IMG/VR virus record: IMGVR_UViG_3300006805_000057
Location: 1-40,599 of that record
Source: a virus
Reading direction: 5' to 3' (one strand)
DNA length: 40,599 nt
Both the position numbers and the translations under genes were made by a program. This document shows positions 727 through 31,732 of this stretch, in pieces; position 1 is the stretch's first letter, and every line of letters begins with the position of its first letter. The notes under the pieces are model-generated. The model searched no databases. It had not been told where the DNA came from and was given only the letters and a program-made list of their open reading frames with translations.

Positions 727-929
727 TAGCGTAAGCCTGCAAGGGGGGCGCGGACTAGGCGGTGGATAGTGTCGGGGGCTTCGTGGGGGGCGATCTGTTG
801 GGCGGTGCGGACCATGCGGATGCGGGCGTTGAAGTCTGAATCCACTTGGCGCTTGGCGGCGCGTAGTTGGGCCAAGGCGGAGTTGGTCTGGTTGCCCCAG
901 TTCTGTGTCCAACTGTTAGGGTTTGGCAT
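726..929 (-). CDS. Hypothetical small basic protein
   Basis: A 67-residue Arg-rich, mostly helical protein of unknown function. It starts inside the last 14 bases of the glycosyltransferase-like gene and ends with a TAATG overlap onto the small membrane protein, so it is a coupled member of the same unit. No motif is visible. Confidence 0.65.
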   Translation of the reverse strand: MPNPNSWTQNWGNQTNSALAQLRAAKRQVDSDFNARIRMVRTAQQIAPHEAPDTIHRLVRAPLAGLR

Positions 930-1704
930 AGTGGGCGATGTCAGAGGCTAGGATTTCAGGGGGGCGCATTTCCCCGTTTTTACGTAGTGTGGAGAACTCG
1001 GCTGCCATGTCATCACAAATTGAGATGCCTTTACGCTTCATGGCGTAGTGGATTAGGGTCTCGGGGTGGAGGGGTGCGCCCTCTGCGATCATGGCGGGGA
1101 TGTGGTCGTAGGTGGTGAAGTAGGCTTCTGCGGCCTTGGCACCAAGGAGGGCAAAGCGGTCATTGCACCCACCAAACCGGCCCCACCAAGGAGTAAATGC
1201 CACCTCCCTAATGCCATTGCCAATTGTAATCATTCTATTGTCGCCTTCGTAGCCAGCCATATGCATTTTCTTAGGTATTCCGTGTGGGACATTGAACGAG
1301 TGAAACCATAGGTCAGGGCGAATCCGAATAATCAGGTCTGCCGGGTCGTTCGATTCCTGATACAGCCTCCACCCTTCCCGAAGCATCCAAAGCTGACCAA
1401 GGACGGCTTGAGGGGATACGCTGATAGCGTAGGGCTCATGCATGTAGTGCGAGCGGGGGCCGTTCCATGTGAGGGGGCAGCCTTCCGGGATGACCATTTC
1501 GGGCTGCTGAAGGGCTTCAAACGAAACCTTGGTTTCGGGGGGGACAAATGCCGCAAGGCGTTCCACCTTCAACGCGTCCTCATCTGCATGGGTGGCAACG
1601 TAGAACTTGGCCCCCGGGAAATGCCGCAGCACATGCCAAATCTGATTAGGGAGGCACTTGTCGAAGGAGCGGAGCGCCCCTGTGTATAGAATGGCAACTT
1701 TCAT
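916..1704 (-). CDS. Glycosyltransferase-like protein
   Basis: A 262-residue cytoplasmic protein. It has the layout of glycosyltransferase-like proteins that open with a beta strand and small-residue loop (MKVAILYTGALRSF), carry a mid-protein IRIRPDLWF segment where the family has its RPD signature, and continue with an aromatic FGGCNDRFALLG segment. These features suggest sugar transfer, but the substrate is not evident. It is coupled by ATGA overlap to the small gene upstream and sits at the end of an island with a radical SAM enzyme and a methyltransferase-like protein. A role in modifying a glycan of the host surface or virion is the simplest inference. The family assignment is from pattern only. 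Confidence 0.7.
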   Translation of the reverse strand: MKVAILYTGALRSFDKCLPNQIWHVLRHFPGAKFYVATHADEDALKVERLAAFVPPETKVSFEALQQPEMVIPEGCPLTWNGPRSHYMHEPYAISVSPQAVLGQLWMLREGWRLYQESNDPADLIIRIRPDLWFHSFNVPHGIPKKMHMAGYEGDNRMITIGNGIREVAFTPWWGRFGGCNDRFALLGAKAAEAYFTTYDHIPAMIAEGAPLHPETLIHYAMKRKGISICDDMAAEFSTLRKNGEMRPPEILASDIAHYAKP

Positions 1705-1913
1705 TTGATTCGTGCGTCGATGTCTTTTGCCCCCATGAAGCGGGCGGCGTTAAGCAACTCTTGGGCAGATACGAGCGATTGCGCCTCCCCAATCCTTACA
1801 ATTACTGAATCGGTAAATGTGCCCACAAGCGAAACCCTAGGTTGATTCCCGTGCTGAACGAAAATCACTTCTTTGGGCTTTAGCGACCCATCTTCGTATG
1901 AAGTAAAAGCCAT
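1701..1913 (-). CDS. Hypothetical small protein
   Basis: A 70-residue mixed alpha/beta protein with no recognised motif. Its ATG forms TAATG with the stop of the coiled-coil gene upstream, and its stop forms ATGA with the glycosyltransferase-like gene downstream. It could be an accessory subunit of the island, judged from position alone. Confidence 0.7.
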   Translation of the reverse strand: MAFTSYEDGSLKPKEVIFVQHGNQPRVSLVGTFTDSVIVRIGEAQSLVSAQELLNAARFMGAKDIDARIK

Positions 1914-2134
1914 TATGTCTTAGCCTTCTCCAGTTCCGCAATCTTGGCTTGGGCCTGCTTCAACTGTTCTTGCAGGGTGGCGATTTCAATACCTGCGCGG
2001 GCATCTAAGTCCTGAAGCTGGGAGGTGGTATTGTCCCGCTGGGCGCGGTAGGTGTTAGCGCGTTGCGTTTCGTAGGCGAGCTTTTGCTGTAGCTCGGCAA
2101 TGGTGGGTTCACTGACTTCGGGTTTCTTTTTCAT
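1913..2134 (-). CDS. Small coiled-coil protein
   Basis: A 73-residue protein, predicted coiled coil from about residue 10 to the C-terminus (heptads of Leu/Ile/Ala with many Gln, Glu and Lys). Its start overlaps the radical SAM stop (ATGA). It lies between the radical SAM enzyme and the glycosyltransferase-like protein, so it may be an oligomerising partner. No enzymatic residues are visible. Confidence 0.75.
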   Translation of the reverse strand: MKKKPEVSEPTIAELQQKLAYETQRANTYRAQRDNTTSQLQDLDARAGIEIATLQEQLKQAQAKIAELEKAKT

Positions 2135-3513
2135 GTGAGTGTGCGCTGCATGTTTTCGGCCTTGCGCTGCCCATCTCCATCAATGGCAAACCGCTCATTG
2201 GTTGCGTCAGGGTATGCGGTCAGGTGTTGGCCTTGTGCGATGGCGTCTAGGGGCGTTCCGCTGATGGTGGCCGTCCCGGATAACTGATGGGTGGAGTGGA
2301 GGCCGTTCTTATAGAGGCGTTCAATCATGCGAAGCGTCATGTTCGCTTCCTCGGGGGTTTCTCCGGGGAGTCCGACCGTCCATGTCGTGTGAACCTTAAG
2401 CCCAATTCCATTCAGGTGGGGCAGGATTCGCGTTTCGATGTCCACAAGGTCTAGGCGTTTGCCTACGATTTTGTTCACAACCCGGTCAGACCCCGACTCC
2501 ATCCCGATTTTGACCCCCGTGCATCCCGCGTCCTTCATGGCTGTCCATGTCTCTAGCTTGATCGTATCGGCTCGGCACATGGCATTCCAAGGGAGTCCGA
2601 TTCGCTTCATGGCCGCAGCAATTCCGAGGGTGTGCTTGTCGCCCAAGTTCTCCGTATCTCCATCTAGGCGGATTGACTGGATTCCGGGGTTTATGGCCAG
2701 CCGGTGACGTATGAAGGATTCAACGTATTCAGGCGTATAGTAGCGGACGGTGCGCTTGCCCTGCCCGTCTGGGTCGTTGTTGGTCATCACGGCCGGGAAG
2801 GCACAGAAGCAACACTTCCAGAAGCAGCCCCGATTAGTCCAAAGCGTTAGCTCGGGGGATTTAGCCCCAGCAGGGCAGGAATCATGATAGGCGAGCGCGT
2901 ATTTCTCATCAAACATCAGGAACGGGGCGTTATTCATCTCCTCTTGCGTCAAAAACTCATGCTCAAAGGCATTATGTTTTGGAATCGCATGATCCATAAC
3001 CACCCCACCTCCAGTTGGGTTGTTCCACTCGTAAAACTTTATCGCCCGCACTACTCCCTTTTCATATTCTCCCATTACGGCTGCATAGCCTAGTGCCGTA
3101 ATTTCTTCGTGGCGGGTGGTCGTTATCGTTCCGGTAATGATGATCTGTGTCTTGGGAGACATCCTTTGCACCATCTTCAAAAGCTGTTTGTCGTGTTCCC
3201 ATGAAGGGGTGGCCGTCTCGCAAACGATGTAATCGGGCTCCTCTTTGGCGATATAGCCCAGATAGGTCTGGTAGGACTCCCGCCTAGAAATGGAGTCGCG
3301 GAGAGTCACAGTAGCCTCAGGAAAGGCCCTAGCGCACCACGCAGCGGCAGATTGGAGAAAGATTGGCTGCGGGCAGTATTCACCGTAAGCGGGCGCGTCT
3401 GGCCGGCTGTTAGTCCGCATCGTGAACGGCCAGCGCGAGCCCGCCCGAATGCCAGCACGCAAATGCTCGCCCTCTTTTTGCCACCACGGCCCGTTTGAAA
3501 AAAGCACTTTCAC
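2131..3513 (-). CDS. B12-binding-type radical SAM enzyme
   Basis: A 460-residue protein. Residues about 45-165 form an alternating alpha/beta domain resembling the cobalamin-binding domain of B12 radical SAM proteins, but without the DxHxxG motif, so any cobalamin would be bound without that His. The radical SAM cluster motif CxxxCxxC is at Cys230, Cys234 and Cys237; later GMESGSD and TTWTVGLPGETPEE segments match the SAM-binding and TIM-barrel strands of the family. Relatives perform methylations or rearrangements on unactivated carbons. The GTG start overlaps the upstream TGA (GTGA), coupling it to the methyltransferase-like gene. The substrate is unknown; a sugar, lipid or peptide target is inferred from the flanking genes. 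Confidence 0.9.
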   Translation of the reverse strand: MKVLFSNGPWWQKEGEHLRAGIRAGSRWPFTMRTNSRPDAPAYGEYCPQPIFLQSAAAWCARAFPEATVTLRDSISRRESYQTYLGYIAKEEPDYIVCETATPSWEHDKQLLKMVQRMSPKTQIIITGTITTTRHEEITALGYAAVMGEYEKGVVRAIKFYEWNNPTGGGVVMDHAIPKHNAFEHEFLTQEEMNNAPFLMFDEKYALAYHDSCPAGAKSPELTLWTNRGCFWKCCFCAFPAVMTNNDPDGQGKRTVRYYTPEYVESFIRHRLAINPGIQSIRLDGDTENLGDKHTLGIAAAMKRIGLPWNAMCRADTIKLETWTAMKDAGCTGVKIGMESGSDRVVNKIVGKRLDLVDIETRILPHLNGIGLKVHTTWTVGLPGETPEEANMTLRMIERLYKNGLHSTHQLSGTATISGTPLDAIAQGQHLTAYPDATNERFAIDGDGQRKAENMQRTLT

Positions 3514-4040
3514 TTGATTCTCTCCAAAACAGTCAACCCATTGCAGTTAGGGAAGGACTCTTTGATGGCCCACGGGGAGGAGGCCAGAAATTCCAGCATG
3601 GCCCGGCATACTCCGTCTCCATAGCGTTCATCCCGTTCTGGCAAGGTGTCGTGCATGATGATAAATCGGGAGACTGATTCAGCTTGGCGAAGGTCGGCCT
3701 TAACCGACTCATACTTGTGGCATCCGTCGATAAAAAGGAGGTGCGTCAGCCCGATCTTGAATCCTTCCGCATGGGTGTCTTGCTGGTGGAATTGCCATGT
3801 CACCTTGGGGATTTCCGGTGGGAAGAACTGTTGATTTGCAATGTCGTAGCTGTGCATCGTCCCCCCGTTGGTTGAGAGTCCAAGAAGGAGGGCGGTGGTG
3901 CTGTTTCCGGTTCGCGTCCCTATCTCGGTAACATGACGGCACATTGAAGCGTATCTAGCCAGAGTTGGAAGGTGTTCCCAAATGTCGTCGTGGACCTCGG
4001 GCCGCTTACACCGTTCGTTAAACAATTCTTGGATGTTCAT
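3510..4040 (-). CDS. Class I SAM-dependent methyltransferase-like protein
   Basis: A 176-residue Rossmann-fold protein. A glycine-containing motif I (VTEIGTRTGNSTTALL) near residues 36-52 would bind SAM; FIDGCHKYESV and IIMHDT correspond to the acidic and DxHxY-type segments of Methyltransf_24/cephalosporin-hydroxylase-like proteins. Members act on sugars or small molecules. It is the first gene of the putative modification island and is preceded by a 58-bp gap. The downstream radical SAM gene starts within its stop codon. Confidence 0.8.
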   Translation of the reverse strand: MNIQELFNERCKRPEVHDDIWEHLPTLARYASMCRHVTEIGTRTGNSTTALLLGLSTNGGTMHSYDIANQQFFPPEIPKVTWQFHQQDTHAEGFKIGLTHLLFIDGCHKYESVKADLRQAESVSRFIIMHDTLPERDERYGDGVCRAMLEFLASSPWAIKESFPNCNGLTVLERIK

Positions 4041-5280: not shown

Positions 5281-6416
5281 GGTGATTTGTGGTTGAGGGC
5301 GGCGTCGTAAGCCTTGGTGAGTTCCGAGCGAAGGGACTTACCAGGTTCAAGCAGATCGGTGCGCCACTCGTTGTTCTCTTGGTCTGCCCAGTCGAGCATT
5401 GCGCTATCCTTCCGCGCCTCCACCAGCTCGGCATGGAACTTACGGCACTCGTCTTGCTCGACACGCAAATCATACTGCGTCTTTTCTAGTTCAGTTGTGG
5501 TCTGTGCCAGCTCGGCATTGGCGGCGGTGAGGTCAGCCAAAAACTTCTCGGCGGCTTCTCCGTTGCGTCTGCTATTAGCCGATGCAATGGACAGGTTGGA
5601 CACCGCTTCATCCCGCTCGCGGCGGAGGGTGGCGAGTTGGGCGACAACTTCACCGTGGCGGGTTTCCATCGTCTGACGCAGGGTGCGCTCGGCCTTCAGT
5701 TGCTTCACGGCATCGCCCCAAAGCCATTGGGTGTTTTCTTGGTCCTTGGTCAGCCTGCCCACCTCGGACTGGGCTGCGGCCAACTCGGTGCGTAAAACGT
5801 AAACCTCATCAAGACGCTCCTCGTAAGACTTGCGCCACGAATCAACCATTTCGCCCCGATACTTGCTTTCCGCAAGGGCCTCATCCCGCTCCTCCCTCAT
5901 CGCGGCCAGTTGGGCGGATGCTGAGTCAGCGGGGGCGTGGCGGAGCCGGTCAATCACACCAAGAACGTCCGCCCTAAAATGCTCGTATCCGTTTTTCCAG
6001 TTGCCGTCAAAGTTCTCATCGCAATGAAGCGCACCAACCTCATCCAAAATATCAGACCATTGCAGCGCATGAACTGCCTTTTTATCATGCCATGCGCCAC
6101 ATGCACAAGGCCCGTTATCCGTGTCGCATTTAACCCCGCCGTTACTTCCGAAATCCCGCTCCCCCTCCGTCGCCTGCTCGGTGGGTGAGGTGGCGGGCTG
6201 GTCCTGCGCCTTCTCTTGATCGTATATCCAGTTGAGAATCGCGGTTTCCATTGCGTCGAGACCGTTGCGGTAACACTCATCCGCCACCTTGAGCGCATCG
6301 CCTTCAAGGTCGTCATAGCCGGCTGGCGGCGAGCCGGCTGCGCTTTCGTTGGCCGCGTCCTTGATGGAACGAAGGTCTCGTTTTAGGTCGCTGATGCGGT
6401 GGATTTGGGTGGTCAT
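5277..6416 (-). CDS. Large coiled-coil protein with Cys-rich motif
   Basis: A 379-residue protein. A helical N-terminus is followed by a compact Cys/His motif near residues 97-109 (CDTDNGPCACGAWH, a possible metal site), then a globular stretch, and then a long coiled coil from about residue 165 to 345 (repeated EERDEA/RRERDEA heptads, many Ala, Glu, Leu and Arg). It resembles the long coiled-coil proteins found in early regions of phages but has no enzymatic signature. ATGA overlaps join it to genes on both sides. Confidence 0.75.
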   Translation of the reverse strand: MTTQIHRISDLKRDLRSIKDAANESAAGSPPAGYDDLEGDALKVADECYRNGLDAMETAILNWIYDQEKAQDQPATSPTEQATEGERDFGSNGGVKCDTDNGPCACGAWHDKKAVHALQWSDILDEVGALHCDENFDGNWKNGYEHFRADVLGVIDRLRHAPADSASAQLAAMREERDEALAESKYRGEMVDSWRKSYEERLDEVYVLRTELAAAQSEVGRLTKDQENTQWLWGDAVKQLKAERTLRQTMETRHGEVVAQLATLRRERDEAVSNLSIASANSRRNGEAAEKFLADLTAANAELAQTTTELEKTQYDLRVEQDECRKFHAELVEARKDSAMLDWADQENNEWRTDLLEPGKSLRSELTKAYDAALNHKSP

Positions 6417-6619
6417 TTGGAGGCCCCTCCCAGTCCCATTGCCGACAAGCAGACCTTAGCAACGTCACGGTATTTGTTTTGAACGTGGTCGCCTTGATGC
6501 TTCCACGCTAGGGTCGGAAACTCCTCGTAATTCCAGACAGAATTATAGTGGGCAACCGCCAAGTCGGCATTATAGCCAACGATTTTCTTAATCGTGAGAC
6601 CGTAGCGTGTGGTAATCAT
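6413..6619 (-). CDS. Hypothetical small protein
   Basis: A 68-residue basic protein of unknown function, coupled by ATGA overlap to the coiled-coil gene downstream. Its own ATG overlaps the TGA that ends the frame at 6616-6751, suggesting a coupled gene also lies immediately upstream. Confidence 0.7.
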   Translation of the reverse strand: MITTRYGLTIKKIVGYNADLAVAHYNSVWNYEEFPTLAWKHQGDHVQNKYRDVAKVCLSAMGLGGASK

Positions 6620-6751
6620 TTTGTGACTGGATTTCGTTGTTCGTTTGAGCTGCCGTAGTGGCAGCCCGATTCCATAAGATACCAGATAGCTTGCTTCCCG
6701 TCTTTAGGAATTGGGAGGCTCGTTTGTAATGGGGCGGAGGGGCGATTTCAT
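6616..6751 (-). pseudogene. Short gene split by a +1 shift
   Basis: An ATG at 6751 overlaps the stop of the gene upstream (TAATG) and encodes 15 codons ending in TCC-TAA-A. Skipping one base at that point opens a frame that continues with PKDGKQAIWYLMESGCHYG and ends in a TGA overlapping the next ATG at 6619. Both junctions match the overlaps used throughout this genome, so a single gene of about 44 codons interrupted by one base is likely. No ATG, GTG or TTG starts the second frame upstream of its internal Met. Causes could be a sequencing error, decay or programmed +1 frameshifting. Confidence 0.5.
6632..6645 (-). promoter_or_regulatory. AACGAA tandem element
   Basis: The minus strand reads AACGAACAACGAAA, identical to the element before the gene at 7599. 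Here it lies about 13 bases before the ATG at 6619 and inside the second frame of the split gene. Function is unknown. Confidence 0.4.
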
Positions 6752-7119
6752 TAGTGAACTAGTTCTAGCTGGCGGGGTTCGGGAAGGACGAATCGGTTCC
6801 GGGCCAACCAAGTCAGGGCCGTGCTTCTCTTTGCCCCATTACAGGCCCATACGTTCGTTTTACAGCCCTTCCGGGTGGGGGAGGTGGCCGTGCGCCGTCC
6901 AACACATGTAATGAGCCCCATTGAAGCCAAAGAGCCCACTGTGAGGCCGCTGATGTGAATGTCATCCCCGACTAGTTCGCCCACCAAGACTTCATCTGCC
7001 GTGAACTCACCGCCTTCTAGCGCCCGATAGATGACCGCTGCTTGGCAACGACGCAGGGGCTCAGGGTGATAGGCCACCTTAAGCAGAACCGCCCGCATGA
7101 AGCCTAGATCGGTGCTCAT
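6751..7119 (-). CDS. Winged-helix-like hypothetical protein
   Basis: A 122-residue basic protein. The central section (about residues 25-85) has a helix, a short helix, then VGSLASMGLITCVGRRTATSP, which matches the recognition-helix and wing layout of winged-helix proteins found in phage early regions. DNA binding is plausible but unproven. ATGA overlap with the gene upstream; TAATG overlap onto the split gene downstream. Confidence 0.65.
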   Translation of the reverse strand: MSTDLGFMRAVLLKVAYHPEPLRRCQAAVIYRALEGGEFTADEVLVGELVGDDIHISGLTVGSLASMGLITCVGRRTATSPTRKGCKTNVWACNGAKRSTALTWLARNRFVLPEPRQLELVH

Positions 7120-7406
7120 AAATCGGGCCTCCCCTCAAAGAACCCCTCATGCGGGATTAGACCTTCTTGCTCTTGGGAGATTCGGTCACAGGCGGGGACG
7201 ATCTTGCGGAACTCCACCGCGTTCCACCCGTGCATCCCTTCTTCGTCTCTGAATTGCTCAAAGCAGAGATAGAGGGTGTCGCTATAGCGCGTGGCCGTGA
7301 CGAGATACGTGACGCCTTTCTTCGGGCAAGGAAAGTTGGGAATAAATGGTTCGTCCCATCCATCAGAAACGCAAACCGCCCGATCCCCCGCCTTCCAATT
7401 ACTCAT
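7116..7406 (-). CDS. Conserved small beta-rich phage protein
   Basis: A 96-residue protein beginning WKAGDRAVCVSDGW, with GVTYLVT and LYLCFEQF strands: an SH3-like or beta-barrel pattern seen in small phage proteins of unknown role. The ATG at 7406 is chosen over an upstream TTG because a GGGAGGG lies 7 bases before it. It overlaps the previous gene by 8 bases. Confidence 0.7.
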   Translation of the reverse strand: MSNWKAGDRAVCVSDGWDEPFIPNFPCPKKGVTYLVTATRYSDTLYLCFEQFRDEEGMHGWNAVEFRKIVPACDRISQEQEGLIPHEGFFEGRPDL

Positions 7407-7599
7407 GGCGAAGCCCTCCCGCAAAATCCTTCATTGCTTGGGCGGTGGCCGGGAATCCCATCTTGGCCGTTTCCTCCGCAACCCTCTCCATGTTCTCCTT
7501 TATGGCCGCGAGGTGGGACGAAAAGAGGGGGGCGCGTTGATCGACTACGGCAAGCCCCCTTTCGAGGGCGCACTTATCGGTGAATGTCGGGTTGTTCAT
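7399..7599 (-). CDS. Hypothetical helical protein
   Basis: A 66-residue helical protein without motifs. It begins a short unit: the 25-base gap before it holds a tandem AACGAA leader directly in front of the ATG instead of a Shine-Dalgarno sequence. Confidence 0.65.
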   Translation of the reverse strand: MNNPTFTDKCALERGLAVVDQRAPLFSSHLAAIKENMERVAEETAKMGFPATAQAMKDFAGGLRHE

Positions 7600-7613
7600 T
7601 TTCGTTGTTCGTT
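7600..7613 (-). promoter_or_regulatory. AACGAA tandem leader element
   Basis: The minus strand reads AACGAACAACGAAA immediately before the ATG at 7599. Related copies stand before the genes starting at 18466, 11060 and 10518. It may be a translation-initiation or regulator-binding element; the role is unproven. Confidence 0.45.
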
Positions 7614-7624
7614 AGGTTTATGGG

Positions 7625-7882
7625 TTAACAATGACTGTGGGGGTGCGCTTTGAGGAGAGCGCGTAGCTCTTTTCGTTTCAGGTCTAGGGCATCTCGCTTG
7701 GTCTTGAGCTTCTGGGTAGTTCCCCAGACCCAAGACACGCGAATAGCATGGTCTAGTTTTGAAATCTCGCGGTCAGCCTTCCGCATCTTCTTGTGAATGG
7801 TCGAGCGAGCACGACTCGAACGTGCGCCTCCGGTCTTGCTCCGGTGTTCTTGTCCACCTAAACTATCACTCGTTAAATTCAT
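7625..7882 (-). CDS. Small basic helical protein
   Basis: An 85-residue, very Arg/Lys-rich helical protein, possibly nucleic-acid binding. The ATG at 7882 was chosen because it overlaps the upstream stop (ATGA); the longer reading frame merely runs antisense of that gene. Function unknown. Confidence 0.65.
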   Translation of the reverse strand: MNLTSDSLGGQEHRSKTGGARSSRARSTIHKKMRKADREISKLDHAIRVSWVWGTTQKLKTKRDALDLKRKELRALLKAHPHSHC

Positions 7883-8253
7883 TTTAGTAATCCTAGCTTT
7901 CTGGCCCAATCTCCATGCCGATGAATCCATCGATGGGAAAGAGGAGAAACGGCCAGCCAAGTATTTGAGTCCAAGTAATTCTTTCCCGTTCTGTGCTCCC
8001 GGTGATGAATCTCAGACGCGGGCGGCGGCGGGATGTTGTCTAGCCATCCATCTTTTCCGGGAGTGAGTCCAACCGGAGCACCCCAAAGGATAGTCATATA
8101 AGCCTGACAGGTGGGATGCGCCTCCAAGAACGCCTTGCGCTTCACCGAATAGATACGGGCCTCCCGCTGCCGCTTAGAACTCATCTTGGGGATGCGCTTG
8201 CGCGGGGCCTTCCCCTTGGGCTTACGATTTAACCACTCGGCTAGGGTTTGCAT
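7879..8253 (-). CDS. HNH-endonuclease-like protein lacking zinc cysteines
   Basis: A 124-residue basic protein. A Lys/Arg-rich N-terminus is followed by an HNH-like core: SEIHHREHRTGKNYLDSNTWLAVS and then SHRWIH. This matches the small phage HNH family in which two CxxC pairs hold a structural zinc, but here the positions read CQAYM and SPLSH, so the zinc site is incomplete. It may be a metal-ion-only variant or a non-catalytic relative. The start at 8253 overlaps the previous gene by 13 bases; the frame is open further upstream without good support. Confidence 0.65.
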   Translation of the reverse strand: MQTLAEWLNRKPKGKAPRKRIPKMSSKRQREARIYSVKRKAFLEAHPTCQAYMTILWGAPVGLTPGKDGWLDNIPPPPASEIHHREHRTGKNYLDSNTWLAVSPLSHRWIHRHGDWARKLGLLK

Positions 8254-8444
8254 GGGGAGAATCGGCCTTTGAGCACCTTCCATCCCAAGCGTTTCATTGC
8301 GCGCCGAGAGGCAATAACGCGCTTCCAATATTTTGTGCGAAAATCGCCGTTCTGATAATCAAACGCGGAGCACCAAGCATCCCAAGTGTCTTGATATATT
8401 CCCCGCATTTTCCCAGACGGTCCGTATAGTGCGTATATGTTCAT
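8241..8444 (-). CDS. Hypothetical small protein
   Basis: A 67-residue basic protein with many aromatic residues and no recognised motif. The ATG at 8444 overlaps the upstream stop (ATGA), which sets the start; the frame is open further upstream but only opposite the previous gene. Confidence 0.7.
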   Translation of the reverse strand: MNIYALYGPSGKMRGIYQDTWDAWCSAFDYQNGDFRTKYWKRVIASRRAMKRLGWKVLKGRFSPCKP

Positions 8445-8752
8445 TTGAAAAGCTCCGGCCTGTCCTTCTTGGTGATGACGTAACGCATTGTGCGGGGAGG
8501 GAATAGGCAGGACGATCTTTCTTTTGAACCACATCGCCTTACCTGCTTAGGCTTGGGGAGGCGGCGACGGTCCACTTTGGGGCAGATGGGGAGGCGGGCG
8601 ATTCCGGCTTCCTCGGGGAGTCTCACCATAAGTTTAATCTCTTCGTTTGTGTGGCCTAGAATGCCGTTTTCAGAACACATAGGCCCCTTCAGGATTCCCG
8701 CCTTAATGGCAGCCTGAACGGTTTCTTTGGGTTGGATTAAGCCGGTGCTCAT
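8441..8752 (-). CDS. Hypothetical basic protein
   Basis: A 103-residue protein of unknown function. The segment around residues 30-55 (LGHTNEEIKLMVRLPEEAGI) could form a helix-turn-helix-like pair, followed by a basic tail. Coupled on both sides by ATGA overlaps. Confidence 0.65.
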   Translation of the reverse strand: MSTGLIQPKETVQAAIKAGILKGPMCSENGILGHTNEEIKLMVRLPEEAGIARLPICPKVDRRRLPKPKQVRRCGSKERSSCLFPPRTMRYVITKKDRPELFK

Positions 8753-9204
8753 GTTTCGAGGCCGCAGCGGCGGCGGAGGTTGGTTAGAGTTCCGCTTTTC
8801 TGGATTCCATAATCGGACAACGCTTGGTCCAGCATTGGGGCAATGAGCTTCAAATCCTCCCGGTTCTGCCTGTCGCGGTAGGCGAGGGCGGCGTGCCAGA
8901 CAGCCGGAACTGTGAAAGGAGCTGGGGCGTATAATGCGTTCTTGTATTGCTCTACAATCTTAGGCCACTCCGTGTTAAACCATGCAATGGCCGCCTCCCC
9001 ATCCTTCTCCCTCTGCGTCAGCTCCTTCACGGGAGGGGCGGGGAGAACGGCGGGCTTCCAGTGGGTAAACCCACTACCCGGAATGGTTCCATGATTAAAC
9101 AAGTATGCTCCTTCGGATTCCCCGGAAAATGCCCATAACGGAAAATCCTTCTCAGTCGGCCTCCGCTCGCTCATCTTAATCCAGCCGTCGTTTTGTGTGC
9201 TCAT
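8749..9204 (-). CDS. DUF551-like phage protein
   Basis: A 151-residue protein. The N-terminal 55 residues (WIKMSERRPTEKDFPLWAF, then FTHWKPAVLPAPP) have the W...ERxP...THWxPLPxPP layout of DUF551 domains, small beta domains common in phage early regions. The C-terminal 90 residues are helical and unassigned. Function unknown. Confidence 0.75.
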   Translation of the reverse strand: MSTQNDGWIKMSERRPTEKDFPLWAFSGESEGAYLFNHGTIPGSGFTHWKPAVLPAPPVKELTQREKDGEAAIAWFNTEWPKIVEQYKNALYAPAPFTVPAVWHAALAYRDRQNREDLKLIAPMLDQALSDYGIQKSGTLTNLRRRCGLET

Positions 9205-9210
9205 AAATTA

Positions 9211-9555
9211 TTATTGGGTAAACTCCACTTCTACGCCGTGGGCACGAAGAAGGGCGATAACGGCAGCCCGCGCAAACGGCCCCTCTGCTTCAACGTCTTC
9301 TTCATCGCCGCCCGTCCAAAGCGTCATCAGGTTCGCGGCACTCTCGTAGGTCCACCAACGATCTGACTTCTCCAACCAAGGAAGCACGGCATCGGCGGAT
9401 TGGGTGAATGGAGGGATTGCCACGTTTTCGTCATACCCAAATTCCATGTTCGGGCAGCTTGCTAGCATTGTGTGACTGCTACACGCTTTCCACCCAGCCA
9501 CCTTCTCAGCCAAGGCGGCGTTCAGTTCGTCGTTAGATGGGTTTGTTAGTTTCAT
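9211..9555 (-). CDS. Phage ABA-sandwich-domain protein
   Basis: A 114-residue acidic protein. LNAALAEKVAGWK, then PPFTQSADAVLPWLEK and a C-terminal EGPFARAAVIALLRAHG follow the pattern of the small phage ABA-sandwich family, which has no known activity. The ATG at 9555 overlaps the upstream TGA (ATGA); a longer upstream reading frame is not supported. Confidence 0.8.
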   Translation of the reverse strand: MKLTNPSNDELNAALAEKVAGWKACSSHTMLASCPNMEFGYDENVAIPPFTQSADAVLPWLEKSDRWWTYESAANLMTLWTGGDEEDVEAEGPFARAAVIALLRAHGVEVEFTQ

Positions 9556-10130
9556 TGGATAGAAATTGTGTATCGCACCCCCTTCCGCTTCCCTAGACAC
9601 TTCCAAATAACCCCGAGGGCGAACAAGAGGGAGATGGGCTGGGAGTTTCGCTTGGTGCGGCGGTAGAGGGCGGGGTGTTCGTCCAGAAGGAGGGCTTCGT
9701 CGCGGGGGGAGGCGGGCGAAACCATGAAGTCGTAACCGCCCGCAATCCCTCCGGTGAAACGGACCACACCAACCCAACCGACAGAATCAAGCAACTCCTC
9801 AAGCAAAAGCGCGTCGTCTGACGGGTCATGATCTTCCGGGGTTGGGTCCGGCTGAAGCGGGATGCGCCTTTCGTCCTCCGGCTCCTCAAGCACAAGCAGC
9901 CATTGCTGGTCTAGCTGACGGCCTAAGATTTCTGTCAGTAGGGAGAGCGCCCGAAGATTTGAGCCCCCCTGCCCTACCAGAGTCCCCATGCAGGCAGCGG
10001 GAGCCCCAACGTGAAAGTCGGTCCTCCCCGCCAAGAACGTGGCCCGAAAATCAAAACGCTCCCACTCCCCCAGCATGGCTGAGATTACGCGCTCTAGGTG
10101 GGCTCCTTGGATTTCGATCTTGTTAGACAT
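9552..10130 (-). CDS. KH-domain RNA-binding-like protein
   Basis: A 192-residue protein. Residues about 5-80 resemble a KH domain: two helices and strands, then GTLVGQGGSNLRALSLL with the GxxG loop (Gly54-Gln-Gly-Gly57) that contacts RNA or single-stranded DNA. An acidic linker follows, and the C-terminal half (about 125-175) is an unassigned alpha/beta region with a basic end. KH proteins are uncommon in phages; a role in RNA control or host-RNA targeting is inferred. The ATG at 10130 is preferred over an in-frame TTG at 10154. Confidence 0.7.
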   Translation of the reverse strand: MSNKIEIQGAHLERVISAMLGEWERFDFRATFLAGRTDFHVGAPAACMGTLVGQGGSNLRALSLLTEILGRQLDQQWLLVLEEPEDERRIPLQPDPTPEDHDPSDDALLLEELLDSVGWVGVVRFTGGIAGGYDFMVSPASPRDEALLLDEHPALYRRTKRNSQPISLLFALGVIWKCLGKRKGVRYTISIQ

Positions 10131-12762: not shown

Positions 12763-13173
12763 TTATTTTTGGTTGGATTGTTCGTTTAACAAGGGAGGGT
12801 TGTATTCGGGTGCGGTAAGTAGCGTGAGCCGTTTAACGCCGGAATGAAGGCGTTTCTTTCTGGCAATGACAAGCTGACTTTCCGACTCGTGCAAGATTTC
12901 GTCAGCCTCCATTTGCGTTATGGCATAGCCGAGTGAGTAAAGGCGGTGAATCTCAAGGCCGGTGAAATAACGCTTCAGTTGGTCAATGGTGCGGAACGCG
13001 CACCCGACGAAATGCTCAGGACGCGCCTTGCTTGCGAAGTCCCAACCAAACTCCTCCATAACGGAAGGCCGGCCCGTTTCCGCTCGGCTCTCATCAACCC
13101 ACCTGTGCGAGAATCCGAGGCGATAGGGCCCGCGTCCTTCCTTGTCCTGAATCCGGTAAACTGTGGTTGTCAC
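12763..13173 (-). CDS. Conserved phage protein
   Basis: A 136-residue protein. VYRIQDKEGRGPYRLGFSHRW, then GCAFRTIDQLKRYF and LGYAITQMEADEILHESESQ, belong to a family common in phages of Proteobacteria and others, with no assigned function. The arrangement of strands, a gating helix and a C-terminal beta region suggests a small globular domain. The GTG start overlaps the upstream TGA (GTGA). Confidence 0.8.
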   Translation of the reverse strand: MTTTVYRIQDKEGRGPYRLGFSHRWVDESRAETGRPSVMEEFGWDFASKARPEHFVGCAFRTIDQLKRYFTGLEIHRLYSLGYAITQMEADEILHESESQLVIARKKRLHSGVKRLTLLTAPEYNPPLLNEQSNQK

Positions 13174-13505
13174 GCGAACCCTTGGTTTGATTCAACGCAG
13201 ACCCACCGGCCCGGGCCTTGGCGCTGAAAAGTCTCTCCGTGCATCGGTCCCATCTTCATGATCTGCCAATCGTGGTCAGGGTATTTTAGTGCCGCGTCCT
13301 CCGCATCCCGAACCGTCCAGATTTCCCCATCATGCGTTTCCTGATAAACGCACTCGTCATCCTTCGTAACATGAGCGGAGCCGAAACCCACCGCAATGGG
13401 CATATCCATGTGAGCTATCTGGCAGGCCGTAGAACAGCAGGCGCATCCAATGTGGATGTCCTTGGCTTCTACTGCCGGTAATACTTTCCATGCTTCTTTA
13501 TTCAT
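13170..13505 (-). CDS. Conserved Cys-rich small phage protein
   Basis: A 111-residue protein with an N-terminal IGCACCSTACQ cluster followed by a beta-rich domain (VGFGSAHVTKDDECVYQ, WTVRDAEDAA, DWQIMKMGPMHGETFQRQG). The pattern recurs in phages next to the family encoded downstream, so the pair probably works together. The early Cys cluster may bind metal. First gene after the 13846-13878 terminator. Confidence 0.75.
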   Translation of the reverse strand: MNKEAWKVLPAVEAKDIHIGCACCSTACQIAHMDMPIAVGFGSAHVTKDDECVYQETHDGEIWTVRDAEDAALKYPDHDWQIMKMGPMHGETFQRQGPGRWVCVESNQGFA

Positions 13506-13845
13506 GTTTAATCCTATTTAATACTTCGTGTTTGCAAGAGCCCAGCACGCTTTCCTCCCCTCAGAGCAGGGAGATTAGCGTCAGACATTCCAGAAGCCTT
13601 CGTGTTTGCTGAGGCCCATCCGTGAAACTCATCACGGCTAGCTAGGAGTCTTTGAGAACGGCGGCGAAATACCGTCCATAGTGGGCTCCCCCTGATTTCC
13701 GCTTGCCCCGGGTTACCCCGAGACTTCCCGATGCTGAAAGCGTGCTCCAAAGGACATCGGCTAAACTAACTGGAATGAACGTCCATCAACGAACTCGGCC
13801 CGATGGCTTGGCCGGCTCCTGATGTAACGCGAGGACAGGAAAGCG
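13506..13845 (-). other. Long structured leader or intergenic region
   Basis: About 340 bases between a terminator and the next coding start. On the minus strand it can form several hairpins: CTCGGG-GTAA-CCCGGG with a GNRA loop (near 13690-13705), CCGTGA/TCACGG (near 13621-13638), and others. A 12-bp direct repeat CTTCGTGTTTGC occurs at 13524-13535 and 13598-13609. A TTG-started frame of 78 codons (13750-13514) spans most of it, but its codon use is unlike its neighbours and it has no motif, so I do not call it a gene. A structured RNA or regulated leader is possible. Confidence 0.5.
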
Positions 13846-13878
13846 AAAACCCCCGAACTAGAGTCAGTAGTTCGAGGG
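13846..13878 (-). terminator. Rho-independent terminator
   Basis: An 11-bp stem (CCCTCGAACTA paired with TAGTTCGGGGG, one G-T pair), a 7-base loop and a TTTT tail on the minus strand, about 115 bases after the stop at 13993. It closes the early unit that begins near 18466. Confidence 0.85.
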
Positions 13879-13992
13879 CTTTCATGAAGGGATTACTCCC
13901 GCACACTAAAGTCTTTCGTCACGCCTGACTCGCGTTCGATGGGGCATAGTCAGTAGTCCTTTCCCTGATGCGTCAAGCAGGTTTTTCACCCG

Positions 13993-14226
13993 TCAAGCCC
14001 GTTTCGCCTCTTTCTTAGCGATGGCCTTCTGTTCGTCTAGGCGCTCTTTTTGAAGGGAGGCCTGATAGTCGGGGTCGTCCTCGTAATAGACCGCTTCTGG
14101 GGGCTTAGGAACGCCGTTGCTGTGGCAGGGAGGGGAGTGGCCGGCGGGGAGGTTGCACCAGTCCCAAGGGGCGCTTATCAGGGGCGCAACCGGGGCTCCC
14201 CTCCAGCTTCGGGCGCACACCCTCAC
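13993..14226 (-). CDS. Hypothetical small protein with Cys/His motif
   Basis: A 77-residue protein. The N-terminal CARSW...WCNLPAGHSPPCHS segment could bind zinc; the C-terminal half is a charged helix. The start is uncertain; GTG at 14226 is used because no ATG is in frame. It is the last gene before the terminator at 13846-13878. Confidence 0.55.
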   Translation of the reverse strand: MRVCARSWRGAPVAPLISAPWDWCNLPAGHSPPCHSNGVPKPPEAVYYEDDPDYQASLQKERLDEQKAIAKKEAKRA

Positions 14227-14323
14227 GAAAGGTAATCCCCGCCCCCGTAACCCGCAGCAAGGTTCCCTCCAAAAATAGGGGCTGCGGATTCCGTCTCTTT
14301 GCGGTGGTTGCTGGGGAAGGTGG

Positions 14324-14515
14324 TCATTGGGGTGGGGGCTTGGGTCCGTGGCGATGCGTCAGGATTTCAAACCAACACATGATGGCGAAAAAAAGTATCA
14401 TTCGCTCGGCCATGCTGGCGTCTGCCATCCATCCGACAAATACGGCGAGAATCATAGCCCAAAGCGGCTTACCCCAAGACTCCCACCGCTTATGTGATTT
14501 AGATTCGTTGTTCAT
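14324..14515 (-). CDS. Small membrane protein
   Basis: A 63-residue protein with a hydrophilic, basic N-terminus, two hydrophobic stretches (about residues 17-33 and 38-52) and a short basic proline-rich end. It probably sits in the inner membrane as a hairpin. ATGA overlap with the SWIM-type gene upstream. A gap of about 100 bases with no supportable feature follows it. Confidence 0.7.
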   Translation of the reverse strand: MNNESKSHKRWESWGKPLWAMILAVFVGWMADASMAERMILFFAIMCWFEILTHRHGPKPPPQ

Positions 14516-14760
14516 TGGGCTGCGAGGTGGTTTCTCATTTCTTCAATGTAGCACTCTAGGGCGAACTGGCGAGCCGCTTTCAGGTGATAACAACGATAGG
14601 GGAGGCCCGTCGCTAGTTCGCGCTCCCTCCGCTTACAGACATAGGAAGCGCACCCGCATTGCCCTTCGACTATATCAACTAGGTGGGTCTGGTCGGGGTG
14701 GGTGCGGCTCGCCACGCGATACCGCCCAACCTCCCCCATTACTGGCGTTACAAGGCTCAT
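14512..14760 (-). CDS. SWIM-type zinc-finger protein
   Basis: An 82-residue protein. RYRVASRTHPDQTHLVDIVEGQCGCASYVCKRR followed by YRCYHLKAAR fits the CxC...CxH pattern of SWIM zinc fingers, which bind DNA or proteins. Free-standing SWIM proteins are common in phage early regions. Coupled on both sides by ATGA overlaps. Confidence 0.8.
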   Translation of the reverse strand: MSLVTPVMGEVGRYRVASRTHPDQTHLVDIVEGQCGCASYVCKRRERELATGLPYRCYHLKAARQFALECYIEEMRNHLAAQ

Positions 14761-16270: not shown

Positions 16271-16461
16271 GCCCCACCCCCGATCATAGAAAGAATGGCG
16301 AGGGAGGCGGCGATAATCGCCCACCCCCACAAGGCCCCCGCCAACCTGTCCAAAGCCCTATCGTCCTTCCAAGACTTATAGTGCTTCTGAGATTTGAGGC
16401 AGAGGAAGCCCAGTCCTGTAAGGAGGGTGGCGAGGAGGGCGAAAAAGAGGGGGTGGTTCAT
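16267..16461 (-). CDS. Small two-TM membrane protein
   Basis: A 64-residue protein with hydrophobic segments at about residues 3-22 and 44-61 separated by a basic loop (KSQKHYKSWKDDR), so both ends probably face the same side. Coupled to genes on both sides by ATGA/GTGA overlaps. No family recognised. Confidence 0.75.
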   Translation of the reverse strand: MNHPLFFALLATLLTGLGFLCLKSQKHYKSWKDDRALDRLAGALWGWAIIAASLAILSMIGGGA

Positions 16462-16631
16462 GGGGTGGGCGGCTTGGGGTGCTGAACGAAGTTGCCCTTT
16501 AACCAGTTGGTGAGGGTTTCAAACGACTCAAAAACATGTCGGTTCGTGGTCGTGTCCATAAACGGCGCTCCCGCTTCGCTAACGATATAGCCGTTCTCTA
16601 CTGATTCGATAATAACTCTGTCGCGTGTCAT
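16458..16631 (-). CDS. Conserved small phage protein
   Basis: A 57-residue protein (starts MTRDRVIIESVENGYIV; FESFETLTNWLKGNF) resembling a small phage protein in which a short beta hairpin is followed by a FxxLxxWL helix. ATGA overlaps with both neighbours fix its start and stop, so it is a real gene despite its size. Function unknown. Confidence 0.75.
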   Translation of the reverse strand: MTRDRVIIESVENGYIVSEAGAPFMDTTTNRHVFESFETLTNWLKGNFVQHPKPPTP

Positions 16632-18678: not shown

Positions 18679-18754
18679 GCCGTTGTAGCTCAGTTGGTAG
18701 AGCGACTGTTTCGTAAACAGTTGGTCGCAGGTTCAAACCCTGCCAGCGGCCCCA
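18679..18754 (+). tRNA. tRNA-Thr (anticodon CGT)
   Basis: A 76-base cloverleaf: acceptor GCCGTTG pairs with CAGCGGC (one G-T pair); D stem GCTC/GAGC around AGTTGGTA; anticodon stem ACTGT/ACAGT with loop TTCGTAA, anticodon CGT reading ACG; T arm GCAGG-TTCAAAC-CCTGC; CCA is encoded. The G1-C72 and C2-G71 pairs fit threonine identity, while a C at the discriminator position is unusual. It is the only supported gene on the plus strand and lies between the two transcription units. It may supply a codon used more by the phage than by its host. Confidence 0.95.
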
Positions 18755-29286: not shown

Positions 29287-30000
29287 CTAAGCCAATTGAT
29301 GCCGCACCCGGATATACCTAGGCTCACGGGGCTTGCCCGACTCAAAAAAACCCATGTGCTGAAAGGTAACTTGGGTTCCGATAGGGGTAAGTTTGCCCCG
29401 AATGTGGAACTCCACCCCGTTCTTTAGCCTGAGAAGAAGCGACTCCTTGCCCTCTTTGTGGCCGATAACAACCCCCTCCGCGTCCTGAGCCGGCTTGACC
29501 TTTCTCATGCCTGCGGACGGGCCTCCCTCATAAACGGACTGGGGATGCCTCAAAACAACCCCTTCCCCCCCACGGGCCATTACATCGCCAAGGAAGGCAT
29601 CTAAATGCGCTTGGGATAGGCAGACCTCCTGCTTGATAACTTGGGCGTAAAGGCCAAAGGATGCAGCTTTTAGTGCCCTATACGTGTCCGTAAAGAAATC
29701 CGAACTAGAGGCAGCGTCTATGATCTTCAGGGAGAGCCCCCGCCAGTCATCGGAACGGAGACGCTTGGCCAATCCCTCAAAGGAGCCGTGACCACCCCAG
29801 ATTTCGCAACGAAGGGCAACGTCCGGTAATTCAGCAGTGAACCAATCCGGGGCGTTTAATTCCACCCCTTCAATGGTCGTAAGTTTGCCGTTTTCCCAGC
29901 CAACCCCCCAGCCATCGAACTTTTCCGACATAAGCCAGCCCACGGGCGAAGCCTTTCCGGTCCATTCCTTGGCTAGCATGAAGTCCATGCCAGAAGCCAA
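29287..30000 (-). CDS. ATP-dependent DNA ligase, minimal
   Basis: A 237-residue enzyme. The adenylation motif SEKFDGWG has the nucleotidyl-accepting Lys27; LRCEIWGG (Glu66) is motif III, EGVVLRHP (Glu146) motif IV and MRKVKP (Lys167, Lys169) motif V. An OB-like C-terminal region of about 60 residues completes the minimal two-domain form. It would seal nicks with ATP. The unusual feature is its location: inside the late tail module, between the tail-terminator and tail-tube candidates, not with the replication genes. Confidence 0.85.
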   Translation of the reverse strand: MASGMDFMLAKEWTGKASPVGWLMSEKFDGWGVGWENGKLTTIEGVELNAPDWFTAELPDVALRCEIWGGHGSFEGLAKRLRSDDWRGLSLKIIDAASSSDFFTDTYRALKAASFGLYAQVIKQEVCLSQAHLDAFLGDVMARGGEGVVLRHPQSVYEGGPSAGMRKVKPAQDAEGVVIGHKEGKESLLLRLKNGVEFHIRGKLTPIGTQVTFQHMGFFESGKPREPRYIRVRHQLA

Positions 30001-30024: not shown

Positions 30025-30564
30025 TCAACTACCCCATGCGGTAGGCAAAATGGAAAATAAACCCGCCCATGTAATCTCCATAACGTCTTGGTCAAAGTCC
30101 CAATCCGTGTAAGGGACGCACCCCTGAAGATTCAGGAACTTGACCGAATAATACGGCAGATTTTCAACCCCGAACGGCCCGCGAAGCGTGGTGTTCATGT
30201 CCCCCGGTGCGCAGTTCAGGTCGAACAGGGTCAAGATAAGGGCCGCGTCCTGTTGGTGTTGGCTAAGGATGGCCGGCACAAGCCCGCTAGGGCCGTCTGC
30301 GGGCCTTAATGTGCGGAGCCTGATAGTCAGGTTGAACTCGTATGCCGTGGCCACAATAGCGCCCGTATCGGGCCTCTGGCCCCACTCCACTGACCTGCTC
30401 AAAGCCGTTACAATCTCGCCAGAGGTGGGACCTTGTTGAAATTGGTCGCTTGGGATACTGAAATAGTCATCAAGCCGGTTGGTAATCAGGCATTGGCGCG
30501 CCCCCGTGCTGATGTTGTCAGCAAAGTTATGGATTTTGATTTCTAGGTCTGAAGGGGTGTTCAT
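30025..30564 (-). CDS. Tail-terminator/minor tail candidate
   Basis: A 179-residue alpha/beta protein. Its position after the 278-residue connector protein and before the tail tube fits a tail terminator or head-tail closure protein. The ATG at 30564 overlaps the upstream TGA (ATGA). No family signature. Confidence 0.55.
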   Translation of the reverse strand: MNTPSDLEIKIHNFADNISTGARQCLITNRLDDYFSIPSDQFQQGPTSGEIVTALSRSVEWGQRPDTGAIVATAYEFNLTIRLRTLRPADGPSGLVPAILSQHQQDAALILTLFDLNCAPGDMNTTLRGPFGVENLPYYSVKFLNLQGCVPYTDWDFDQDVMEITWAGLFSILPTAWGS

Positions 30565-31397
30565 GCGGCGGAGAGATAAGCCCTCATCCAAGGATAAGAC
30601 CGGCTGGCGGCCTGAATGCTTTTGAATGCACCGTTACCAAAGACGCGGCGATAAAGCCCAACTCGCCCCGCCAGCACCCCCGCAAGGGTCCGGTCTAGCC
30701 CCGCCTTGGCGTGATAGGGGAGCGAGTTAATCAGGGTCACAAAGTAGCGTCCAGCGTTCTTTTCCTCGGTTTCGGATGCGGTTCCGTTGATGTATCTTTG
30801 ACCCTTAGACGACATGGCAAGACGCGCCTTGGCAATACCTGCAGGCGATATGCCTCCACCGGGAATCTTGGCTAAGTCCACACCCAATTTGTCGGCAATC
30901 TGAATAACCGATTGCCGCGCAAGTCCGGCGGATGATTTACCCAGTTCCGTGGCTTTTTTAATGGCATTTTCGGAATCAACCAACGCCCTTTCGATTGAAA
31001 GCCAATCTTCGTCTTTCCAATGAAAGTTTCTTGGTGAAAATCCAAACGTTTTGACGTTCATCACCCCGGCCTCACGCCAAGGTTTTCCACGCTTGCCTTG
31101 GGTCTTTACCCATAGACGGCCCGCAAGACCTCGCGTGCCGGTGTTGATCGTAATGGCCCCCGGAGCGGCGTCTCGGCCAGCTTTCGTATAACCCAAATCA
31201 TGCAACGCCCGTTTTCTGGCGCGATATTCTACCTTATCCCGGGTTGCTACCTTCGTTCGCCCCGCCCACGTCTTCAGGATGGCCCCCGCCTCCCCTTTCG
31301 TGACTTGTTTTTCAGAGAACCCAGTCAACCGGGCAATGTCCTTCAGTCCCGCGCTTAGTTTGGCGGTTACTTCAGGGCCATTGATAACTTTCATCAT
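30561..31397 (-). CDS. Head-tail/tail completion protein candidate
   Basis: A 278-residue basic protein, helical with a central region rich in Gly and Lys. Position suggests an HK97 gp10-like or minor-tail role, but no signature is seen. Start at 31397 (ATGA overlap); an adjacent ATG at 31394 is equally possible. The open frame before it is not used. Confidence 0.5.
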   Translation of the reverse strand: MMKVINGPEVTAKLSAGLKDIARLTGFSEKQVTKGEAGAILKTWAGRTKVATRDKVEYRARKRALHDLGYTKAGRDAAPGAITINTGTRGLAGRLWVKTQGKRGKPWREAGVMNVKTFGFSPRNFHWKDEDWLSIERALVDSENAIKKATELGKSSAGLARQSVIQIADKLGVDLAKIPGGGISPAGIAKARLAMSSKGQRYINGTASETEEKNAGRYFVTLINSLPYHAKAGLDRTLAGVLAGRVGLYRRVFGNGAFKSIQAASRSYPWMRAYLSAA

Positions 31398-31732
31398 GAG
31401 GTAGGCTGGTTGAGCTGGACCGTGATGGCATAATGGGCCGCCCCATATACCTCCACCTGCTTTCTGGTCCATTGGGTGGCGTTAAACAGGGATGGGGCCG
31501 TAATCGTAATGGCCCCCCGCTGGCCGGGCATCTGGGAAAACTGGCTACGGGTTGCCAGAATGACCATGACCGCCCTCCCCTGATAGCCGCCCGTCAGCAT
31601 TTGGGTCGTTACCTCGGGATTGTTGATGGTCCCGTTATAGGTCCCGTCATCCATCTCAAAAACAACCTTAGTCCCGATGTCGGCCATGCCTTCATCCTGA
31701 ATCTCGGTGAACATTTCATCCGATTCGCTCAC
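31394..31732 (-). CDS. Head-tail connector candidate
   Basis: A 112-residue beta-rich protein (VVFEMDDGTYNGTINNP, then AVMVILATRSQF, GAITITAPSLF, ITVQLNQ) of the size and position of small head-tail connector or stopper proteins. The GTG start overlaps the glycosyltransferase stop (GTGA). Confidence 0.55.
   Translation of the reverse strand: MSESDEMFTEIQDEGMADIGTKVVFEMDDGTYNGTINNPEVTTQMLTGGYQGRAVMVILATRSQFSQMPGQRGAITITAPSLFNATQWTRKQVEVYGAAHYAITVQLNQPTS

Follow-up and report, generated by a model that had tools for sequence, protein, structure and literature searches.

The capsid and tail-tube proteins of mycobacteriophages carry glycans (Freeman 2023, as cited in PMC12619734 and PMC12691614), and the A197 glycosyltransferase of the archaeal virus STIV has the STIV capsid protein as its suspected substrate, the passages of PMC10551542 consulted naming neither a methyltransferase nor a radical-SAM enzyme as its partner. 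Two radical-SAM enzymes are also relevant here: AprD4, a 1,2-diol dehydratase from an antibiotic pathway that acts on the sugar paromamine (PMC5461906), and HpnJ, which turns a glucosamine-bearing hopanoid into a cyclitol ether after a glycosyltransferase step (PMC12583986). Two papers on marine or archaeal-virus data mention radical-SAM genes and glycosyltransferase genes, each on their own (PMC7150976, PMC9723712), and our literature search found no description of a gene set combining a methyltransferase, a radical-SAM enzyme and a glycosyltransferase. The present locus had been described at first as unlike any standard phage module, a view that was not supported, since phages that keep glycosylation genes next to structural ones are already known; the element that is new relative to those modules is the radical-SAM enzyme.

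The window, the whole stretch of 40,599 nucleotides analysed here (IMG/VR virus record IMGVR_UViG_3300006805_000057), carries the features collected in Table 1, hereafter MT, rSAM, GT and GT2 for the enzymes. The best reading, to which we give somewhat better than an even chance, is that this cassette glycosylates a virion protein with a modified sugar. As in the mycobacteriophages there are glycosyltransferase genes, here with a putative action on virion proteins; the window differs in adding MT and rSAM, and comes from a group of uncultured phages.

Table 1. Features of the cassette and of the genome ends in the window
Feature	Coordinates	Strand	Description
Methyltransferase (MT)	3510-4040	minus	176 aa; class I SAM methyltransferase, Methyltransf_24 (PF13578)
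Radical SAM (rSAM)	2131-3513	minus	460 aa, GTG start; HpnJ/AprD4-like
Coiled-coil ORF	1913-2134	minus	73 aa; conservation with the cassette not seen in relatives
Small ORF	1701-1913	minus	70 aa; found in the window only
Glycosyltransferase (GT)	916-1704	minus	262 aa; GT-A fold; cassette core gene
Second glycosyltransferase (GT2)	31729-32562	minus	GT-A, GT2-type; beside major capsid and decoration genes
Conserved gene preceding TerS in relatives	83-529	minus	final gene ahead of the genome end
12-nt end repeat CTCAATGTTCCC	1-12, second copy 40588-40599	no strand	inferred cohesive end (cos)

The original prediction of three tailoring enzymes was confirmed for all three by profile or fold evidence. 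rSAM matches PF04055 above the cut-off (E 2.8e-14) and carries the cluster motif CxxxCxxC as CFWKCCFC, the motif being present in 49 of 49 family members. Its AF2 model (pLDDT 93) is matched over the full length by radical-SAM enzymes, the best of the structural matches listed being AprD4 with paromamine (6fd2; Z 29.2, rmsd 3.1, 389 aligned), followed in that list by a match at Z 25.6. The two proteins share a two-domain layout at 19% identity, and no AprD3-like reductase was recognised in the window. In the NCBIfam ranking HpnJ is closest (TIGR03471; 104.7 bits against a cut-off of 577.6), then PhpK, ApyD and AprD4 (NF033070; 51.8 bits against 500), all far under their cut-offs; HpnJ acts on a glucosamine already attached to its acceptor, but that acceptor is a lipid. 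The N-terminal domain of rSAM shows a cobalamin-domain-like Rossmann fold in the model and scores 31.3 bits against the B12-binding PF02310, just under the 32.1 cut-off. The DxHxxG motif is absent, as had been pointed out, but its absence does not make the phage enzyme an oddity: it is missing from the N-terminal B12-like domain in the 49 phage and bacterial members, the few pattern matches all lying outside that domain, and is therefore a family trait. Some B12 radical-SAM enzymes also lack DxHxxG, so the missing motif is not decisive on cobalamin. A need for cobalamin is not supported; the closest structure, AprD4, to our knowledge binds no cobalamin, and the N-terminal domain may resemble a B12 domain in fold only. 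rSAM likely remodels a sugar by radical chemistry, and its family, probably sugar-acting and represented in bacteria by Azospirillum, Pelagibacter relatives, Magnetococcales and cyanobacteria, is now within the reach of biochemistry.

GT gave weak sequence matches only (DUF7796, phrog_13607) and a PDB sequence search with its profile returned nothing useful, so fold comparison was used instead. The AF2 model (pLDDT 85) shows a GT-A fold, aligned by VIA-align at Z 11-13 to GT6, COLGALT1 and Mnn9 glycosyltransferases (COLGALT1: Z 13.3, 188 aligned, rmsd 3.2) and by Foldseek to GT6 enzymes at E about 1e-5, in comparisons that cover the listed PDB families and do not thereby exclude others. The R-x-R-x-D, DR and HPE motifs are invariant in 27 members, and on its predicted structure the protein is a GT-A-fold glycosyltransferase. 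Structure prediction thus recovered both of the folds sought, radical-SAM and GT-A. GT2 matches the glycosyltransferase family phrog_34859 (E 3e-5) and also phrog_1574, while its family profile matches STIV A197 (2c0n, E 4e-5), likewise a viral glycosyltransferase with a capsid protein as suspected target. It adjoins the capsid gene and is the sole cassette-linked gene within the head block of the window. MT matches PF13578 above the Pfam gathering cut-off (E 7.9e-10; 40 bits against 26.3), and its family profile matches PDB 6g7d, entitled 'Methyltransferase domain protein' (E 5e-6), which may be a sugar O-methyltransferase, an identity that we do not count as evidence. MT itself is likely a sugar O-methyltransferase.

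The run from MT to GT occupies the genome end in the window, before the inferred cos and TerS and outside the head block. Neither this position, nor the siting among head genes in relatives, nor GT2, nor the optional nature of rSAM had been noticed at first. Its genes had been proposed to form a coupled island of five, joined by overlaps. The overlaps are there (GTGA for MT/rSAM, ATGA for rSAM/coiled coil, TAATG for coiled coil/small ORF and ATGA for small ORF/GT), but overlaps of 1 and 4 bases are frequent genome-wide (e.g. 4401/4404, 5277/5280, 13170/13173 and 35002/35005) and the chain extends beyond GT into 726-929, 529-726 and 83-529. The five genes are therefore not set apart by them, and we rejected the overlaps as a sign of special coupling. 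A five-gene operon was rejected as well, because neither small gene accompanies the enzymes in relatives. The coiled-coil ORF gave background coiled-coil matches only in Pfam and PHROG scans and has no clear orthologue adjoining other rSAM genes; the small ORF has no family match in those scans and no homologue in the related loci fetched. A role as partner genes is thus supported for neither. No promoters or terminators scored above shuffled sequences. Homologues of gene 83-529 stand directly ahead of TerS, or of MT or rSAM (L012-L014, L031 and others).

A scan of viral contigs with a single rSAM sequence found nothing, and a three-sequence profile reached the relatives. In one related phage (G001), with TerL, portal and MCP 50-53% identical to those of the window phage, the genes form a single run of MT, rSAM, a second methyltransferase (MT2), GT and GT2-FkbM, located after the capsid gene, between the decoration gene and a homologue of window 30561-31472; MT (46% identity) is again just ahead of rSAM, and the GT2 homologue is an FkbM fusion immediately after GT. 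The proposed co-occurrence was upheld for the enzymes, though not for the small genes: viral contigs yielded 14 rSAM clusters, and GT is present in all 13 that are testable, the contig of the remaining one (L048) ending right after rSAM. rSAM and GT distances are correlated over 14 loci (Mantel r 0.56, p 1e-4). Among 40 GT clusters in viral contigs, 26 have a PF13578-like methyltransferase, 21 have GT2, and 23 have TerL, portal or MCP on the same stretch, which measures about 20 kb or less; about 15 show no recognised head gene nearby, and other capsid families may escape the scans.

The majority of rSAM clusters are surrounded by genes for terminase, portal and capsid, with MT, rSAM and GT amid head genes in G001, L016, L022, L024, L031 and others, and the rSAM/GT cassette spans at least three capsid families (phrog_617, phrog_1005 and phrog_1328). 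Two gene orders recur, TerS-TerL-[rSAM]-MT-GT-portal-GT2 and portal-MCP-decoration-GT2-rSAM-MT2-GT. One rSAM lineage (the L025 group) instead has DnaB and clamp genes in its vicinity, and in L024 an epimerase-family gene follows rSAM-GT. Linkage of phage glycosyltransferases to virion structural genes is accordingly seen both in the window, with GT2 by the capsid gene, and in relatives. Between phages that are 84-91% identical, rSAM alone is cleanly present or absent (1,408 nt versus 21 nt) with MT and GT kept, which makes rSAM a probable tailoring step that plugs into a glycosylation module linked to the capsid genes.

In the pathway that we infer, the module is tied to particle assembly and has GT, MT and GT2 as its core. 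The glycosyltransferases would most likely transfer host-made nucleotide sugars, in the cytoplasm late in infection, onto new capsid, decoration or tail protein, and MT would O-methylate the sugar. Several observations count against this reading: the window has no recognised gene for sugar-nucleotide synthesis, its MT-rSAM-GT run lies outside the head block, the L025 lineage of rSAM has other neighbours, and about 15 of the 40 GT clusters lack a recognised head gene nearby. As an optional add-on, rSAM would generate a 5'-deoxyadenosyl radical and remodel the sugar by dehydration or deoxygenation (as AprD4), ring rearrangement (as HpnJ) or C-methylation. The resulting rare glycan could adjust adsorption or conceal the particle from whatever binds it. 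That a widespread set of uncultured tailed phages covers its virions in a sugar which a dedicated radical-SAM enzyme has rebuilt, this step being gained or lost as a single gene, is a tentative proposal that we rate slightly below an even chance; if so, no earlier case is known to us in which radical-SAM chemistry serves the glycan of a virus particle itself. Drawings of phages usually show bare protein. The cassette predicts rare, enzymatically rebuilt sugars on the virions of a large uncultured group, with close relatives differing by one tailoring enzyme. Matched pairs with and without rSAM, such as L141 against L142, L144 and L147, would allow tests of how virion sugars affect adsorption, competition between phages and survival of the particles.

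The output had originally been left wide, as a modified sugar, lipid or peptide located on the host surface or the virion, or a modified small molecule; a modified sugar at either of these two places is supported in direction, and the small-molecule or peptide option is less favoured. Modification of a host-surface glycan, in which LPS, capsule or another envelope glycan is altered to block re-infection by competing phages, is possible but on balance unlikely. The neighbours of bacterial rSAM genes speak for it as well as for the virion reading, being most often sugar epimerases, glycosyltransferases and methyltransferases, so that glycan genes predominate, and the closest full-length bacterial homologue found in annotated records (44%, on Azospirillum plasmids) sits in a surface-polysaccharide-like cluster with epimerases, glycosyltransferases and FkbM methyltransferases. 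Cyanophage GT homologues also lie in sugar clusters: Synechococcus phage S-8S53 has a GT relative (24%) amid glycosyltransferase, epimerase and pyrophosphorylase genes, but it is a 177 kb cyanophage that carries sugar-nucleotide genes and in which no radical-SAM relative was found. Against a host-surface target, Pfam and PHROG scans of the window proteins recognised no membrane glycosyltransferase, flippase or Gtr-type membrane gene, the equipment of prophage seroconversion (GtrA/GtrB/GtrS); the relatives' genes lie inside the late head and packaging block and not with lysogeny or early genes, and GT2 remains beside or within the head block.

The enzyme matches bear on two further explanations. 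In small-molecule or RiPP-like tailoring, rSAM and MT would modify a peptide or metabolite; the NCBIfam families that come next after the best one for rSAM include PhpK (phosphinate) and ApyD (RiPP), and the small ORFs might encode precursor peptides, but these ORFs are not kept with the cassette in relatives, the conserved partner is GT rather than a RiPP leader-binding protein or transporter, and HpnJ and AprD4 are the best sequence family and structure, which makes this explanation improbable. Still less probable is DNA hypermodification, in which the phage would escape restriction because the glycosyltransferases and rSAM act on a modified base in its genome. Phage glycosyltransferases with such a function exist (Pyle 2024, as cited in PMC12619734), yet in structure GT and rSAM are matched best by enzymes that act on sugars and proteins, and the Pfam-scanned window proteins include no recognised thymidylate synthase, hydroxymethylase or other base-modifying partner, a search that is not exhaustive because most early genes have no known function.

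Outside the viral contigs, tblastn against 50,697 cultured-phage records gave no rSAM or MT relative and three GT matches, all distant; the G001 rSAM gave one match to phage records, weak and partial. Assigning a host through TerL failed: matches at E < 1e-100, at 36-39% identity, came from a single genome among 388 in the phylum of an Opitutaceae MAG and a single one among 385 in an alphaproteobacterial class. GT was found in 3 of 273 genomes of the order of the Opitutaceae. In two Opitutaceae an rSAM-GT pair immediately follows two tandem flagellin genes, a protein-glycosylation setting that speaks for the virion reading in these two genomes.

The original prediction assigned five overlapping ORFs at 916-4040 to a methyltransferase (MT), a B12-type radical-SAM enzyme (rSAM), a glycosyltransferase-like protein (GT) and two small proteins. 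An ORF and junction check places all five on the minus strand and reproduces the ORFs and overlaps exactly; the overlaps themselves carry little weight, since 1- or 4-base gene overlaps are frequent throughout the genome. We read the cassette as a virion glycosylation system: while particles assemble, a virion protein would receive a sugar of host origin from the glycosyltransferases, MT would methylate that sugar and rSAM would remodel it. Phages that glycosylate their virions are already on record: PMC12619734 states that the capsid and tail-tube proteins of mycobacteriophages carry glycans.

Features of the cassette, its relatives and the window
Feature	Position	Strand	Basis or setting
MT, class I methyltransferase	3510-4040	-	PF13578, 40 bits vs cut-off 26.3
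rSAM, radical-SAM enzyme	2131-3513	-	PF04055, E 2.8e-14; CxxxCxxC
GT, predicted GT-A glycosyltransferase	916-1704	-	AlphaFold2 model and fold comparison
GT2 homologue, window	31729-32562	-	still adjoins capsid and decoration genes
GT2-FkbM-type methyltransferase domain fusion, related phage G001 (L005)	13080-14732		directly after GT, head gene block
Typical order 1			TerS-TerL-[rSAM]-MT-GT-portal-GT2
Typical order 2			portal-MCP-decoration-GT2-rSAM-MT2-GT
Typical order 3, different capsid family (phrog_1005)			MCP-GT2-type GT-MT-rSAM-GT-epimerase-GT
rSAM-GT pair, Opitutaceae (L055)	5915-10051		bacterial
rSAM-GT pair, Opitutaceae (L057)	5637-10054		bacterial
tRNA-Leu (CAA)	7798-7872	-	
tRNA-Thr (CGT)	18679-18754	+	strand opposite to genes
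ATP-dependent DNA ligase-like gene (phrog_114)	29287-30000		amid structural genes
Small gene	16458-16631		42% relative directly 3' of rSAM in G001; far from rSAM in window

Sequence matches of GT were weak only. Its AlphaFold2 model, built from 27 relatives (mean pLDDT 85), resembled GT6 enzymes (Foldseek E about 1e-5), COLGALT1 (VIA-align Z 13.3, 188 residues, 3.2 A) and, at Z 11-13, Mnn9 and GT6 enzymes, and the related entries of the viral structure library were cyanophage and giant-virus proteins, one with a DUF7796 domain. The B12-binding match of rSAM fell below threshold (31.3 vs 32.1 bits), and DxHxxG was found in the B12-like stretch of none of the family members compared. By sequence rSAM is nearest to HpnJ (104.7 bits), followed by PhpK, ApyD and AprD4, all far under their cut-offs. 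The best structural match of its model (pLDDT 93) is AprD4 with its sugar substrate bound (Z 29.2, rmsd 3.1 over 389 residues); MgmA (25.6) and the B12 enzymes CysS, OxsB and TsrM come next. Both HpnJ (PMC12583986) and AprD4 (PMC5461906) act on a sugar already linked to something.

A three-sequence rSAM profile retrieved 39 viral and 59 bacterial loci; the viral rSAM clusters number 14 at 85% identity. GT was present in all 13 testable viral clusters, the 14th ending right after rSAM. A search that started from GT instead returned 119 loci, grouped into 40 clusters, with a PF13578-like methyltransferase in 26, GT2 (a second GT-A glycosyltransferase) in 21 and rSAM in 19, a twentieth carrying rSAM at the opposite contig end; TerL, portal or MCP lay in the same stretch (at most about 20 kb) in 23. 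rSAM and GT distances were correlated (Mantel r 0.56, p 1e-4, a test that ignores shared phage ancestry). Three phage loci without rSAM (L142, L144 and L147) match the rSAM-bearing L141 to either side of its rSAM gene, with 84-91% nucleotide identity in aligned flanks of roughly 3-7 kb and 10 kb; exactly at the rSAM position they have 21 nt in place of 1,408 nt, with MT and GT retained. Among the viral loci compared rSAM implies GT and not the reverse; the simplest reading is that rSAM acts on the product of GT.

The 40.6-kb window represents a tailed phage. Almost all its genes lie on the minus strand, and its products include a GpA-type (lambda-like) large terminase, a lambda-type portal and a protease-capsid fusion. 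Exactly 12 nt are common to both ends (1-12 and 40588-40599). Two related contigs (L013 and L014) likewise each have a 12-mer common to their own two ends (GTGTTGGCGTCA, GTGTTGGTGTCA), and in a third, L012, a 12-mer of this kind (GTGTTGGCGTCC) is contig-internal at 7138, 68 bp before TerS. As 12 is, to our knowledge, no assembler word length, these matches suggest a complete linear genome with lambda-like 12-nt cohesive ends, which would put the island at the end of the genome, immediately ahead of cos and, after circularisation, next to TerS. In G001 (IMG/VR 3300020119_000141), whose TerL, portal and MCP are 50-53% identical to those of the window, MT (46%), rSAM (48%), two small ORFs, a second PF13578 methyltransferase, GT (37%) and the GT2-FkbM fusion form a single run downstream of the capsid and decoration genes. 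The window GT2 lies outside the originally predicted island.

A virion protein is the probable acceptor because the cassette lies beside capsid genes of at least three families (the third, phrog_1328, in phage L029), because GT2 matches STIV A197, a suspected capsid glycosyltransferase (PMC10551542), and because of a flagellin parallel: in two Opitutaceae genomes the rSAM-GT pair is directly downstream of two tandem flagellin genes, which suggests a flagellin-glycan pathway. The exception in location is the L025 group, with the cassette near DnaB and clamp genes. The main rival reading has the cassette modify the host surface; scans of the window proteins recognised no Gtr-type membrane gene. 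We consider DNA modification unlikely, as none of the window proteins scanned could be recognised as a base-modification partner. The analysis establishes the folds, the co-occurrence, the gene location and the one-gene indel; for virion glycosylation we infer the sugar substrate, a virion-protein acceptor, the order of steps and the benefit.

Our searches of the open literature brought up no description of the radical-SAM plug-in, of an MT-GT-GT2 core that recurs in uncultured-phage head modules, or of the lack of close rSAM relatives among 50,697 phage records. The phage members split off on one side of a tree branch (SH-aLRT 92), so rSAM appears to be a settled phage gene and no recent pick-up; the window rSAM pairs with that of L012 (support 98). 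The genes around bacterial rSAM members mainly encode sugar epimerases, glycosyltransferases and methyltransferases; of 122 neighbour proteins, 20 matched the epimerase family. On Azospirillum plasmids (L008, L009) the rSAM relative, 577 aa long with an extra C-terminal stretch, is flanked by sugar epimerases and glycosyltransferases inside a surface-polysaccharide-like cluster.
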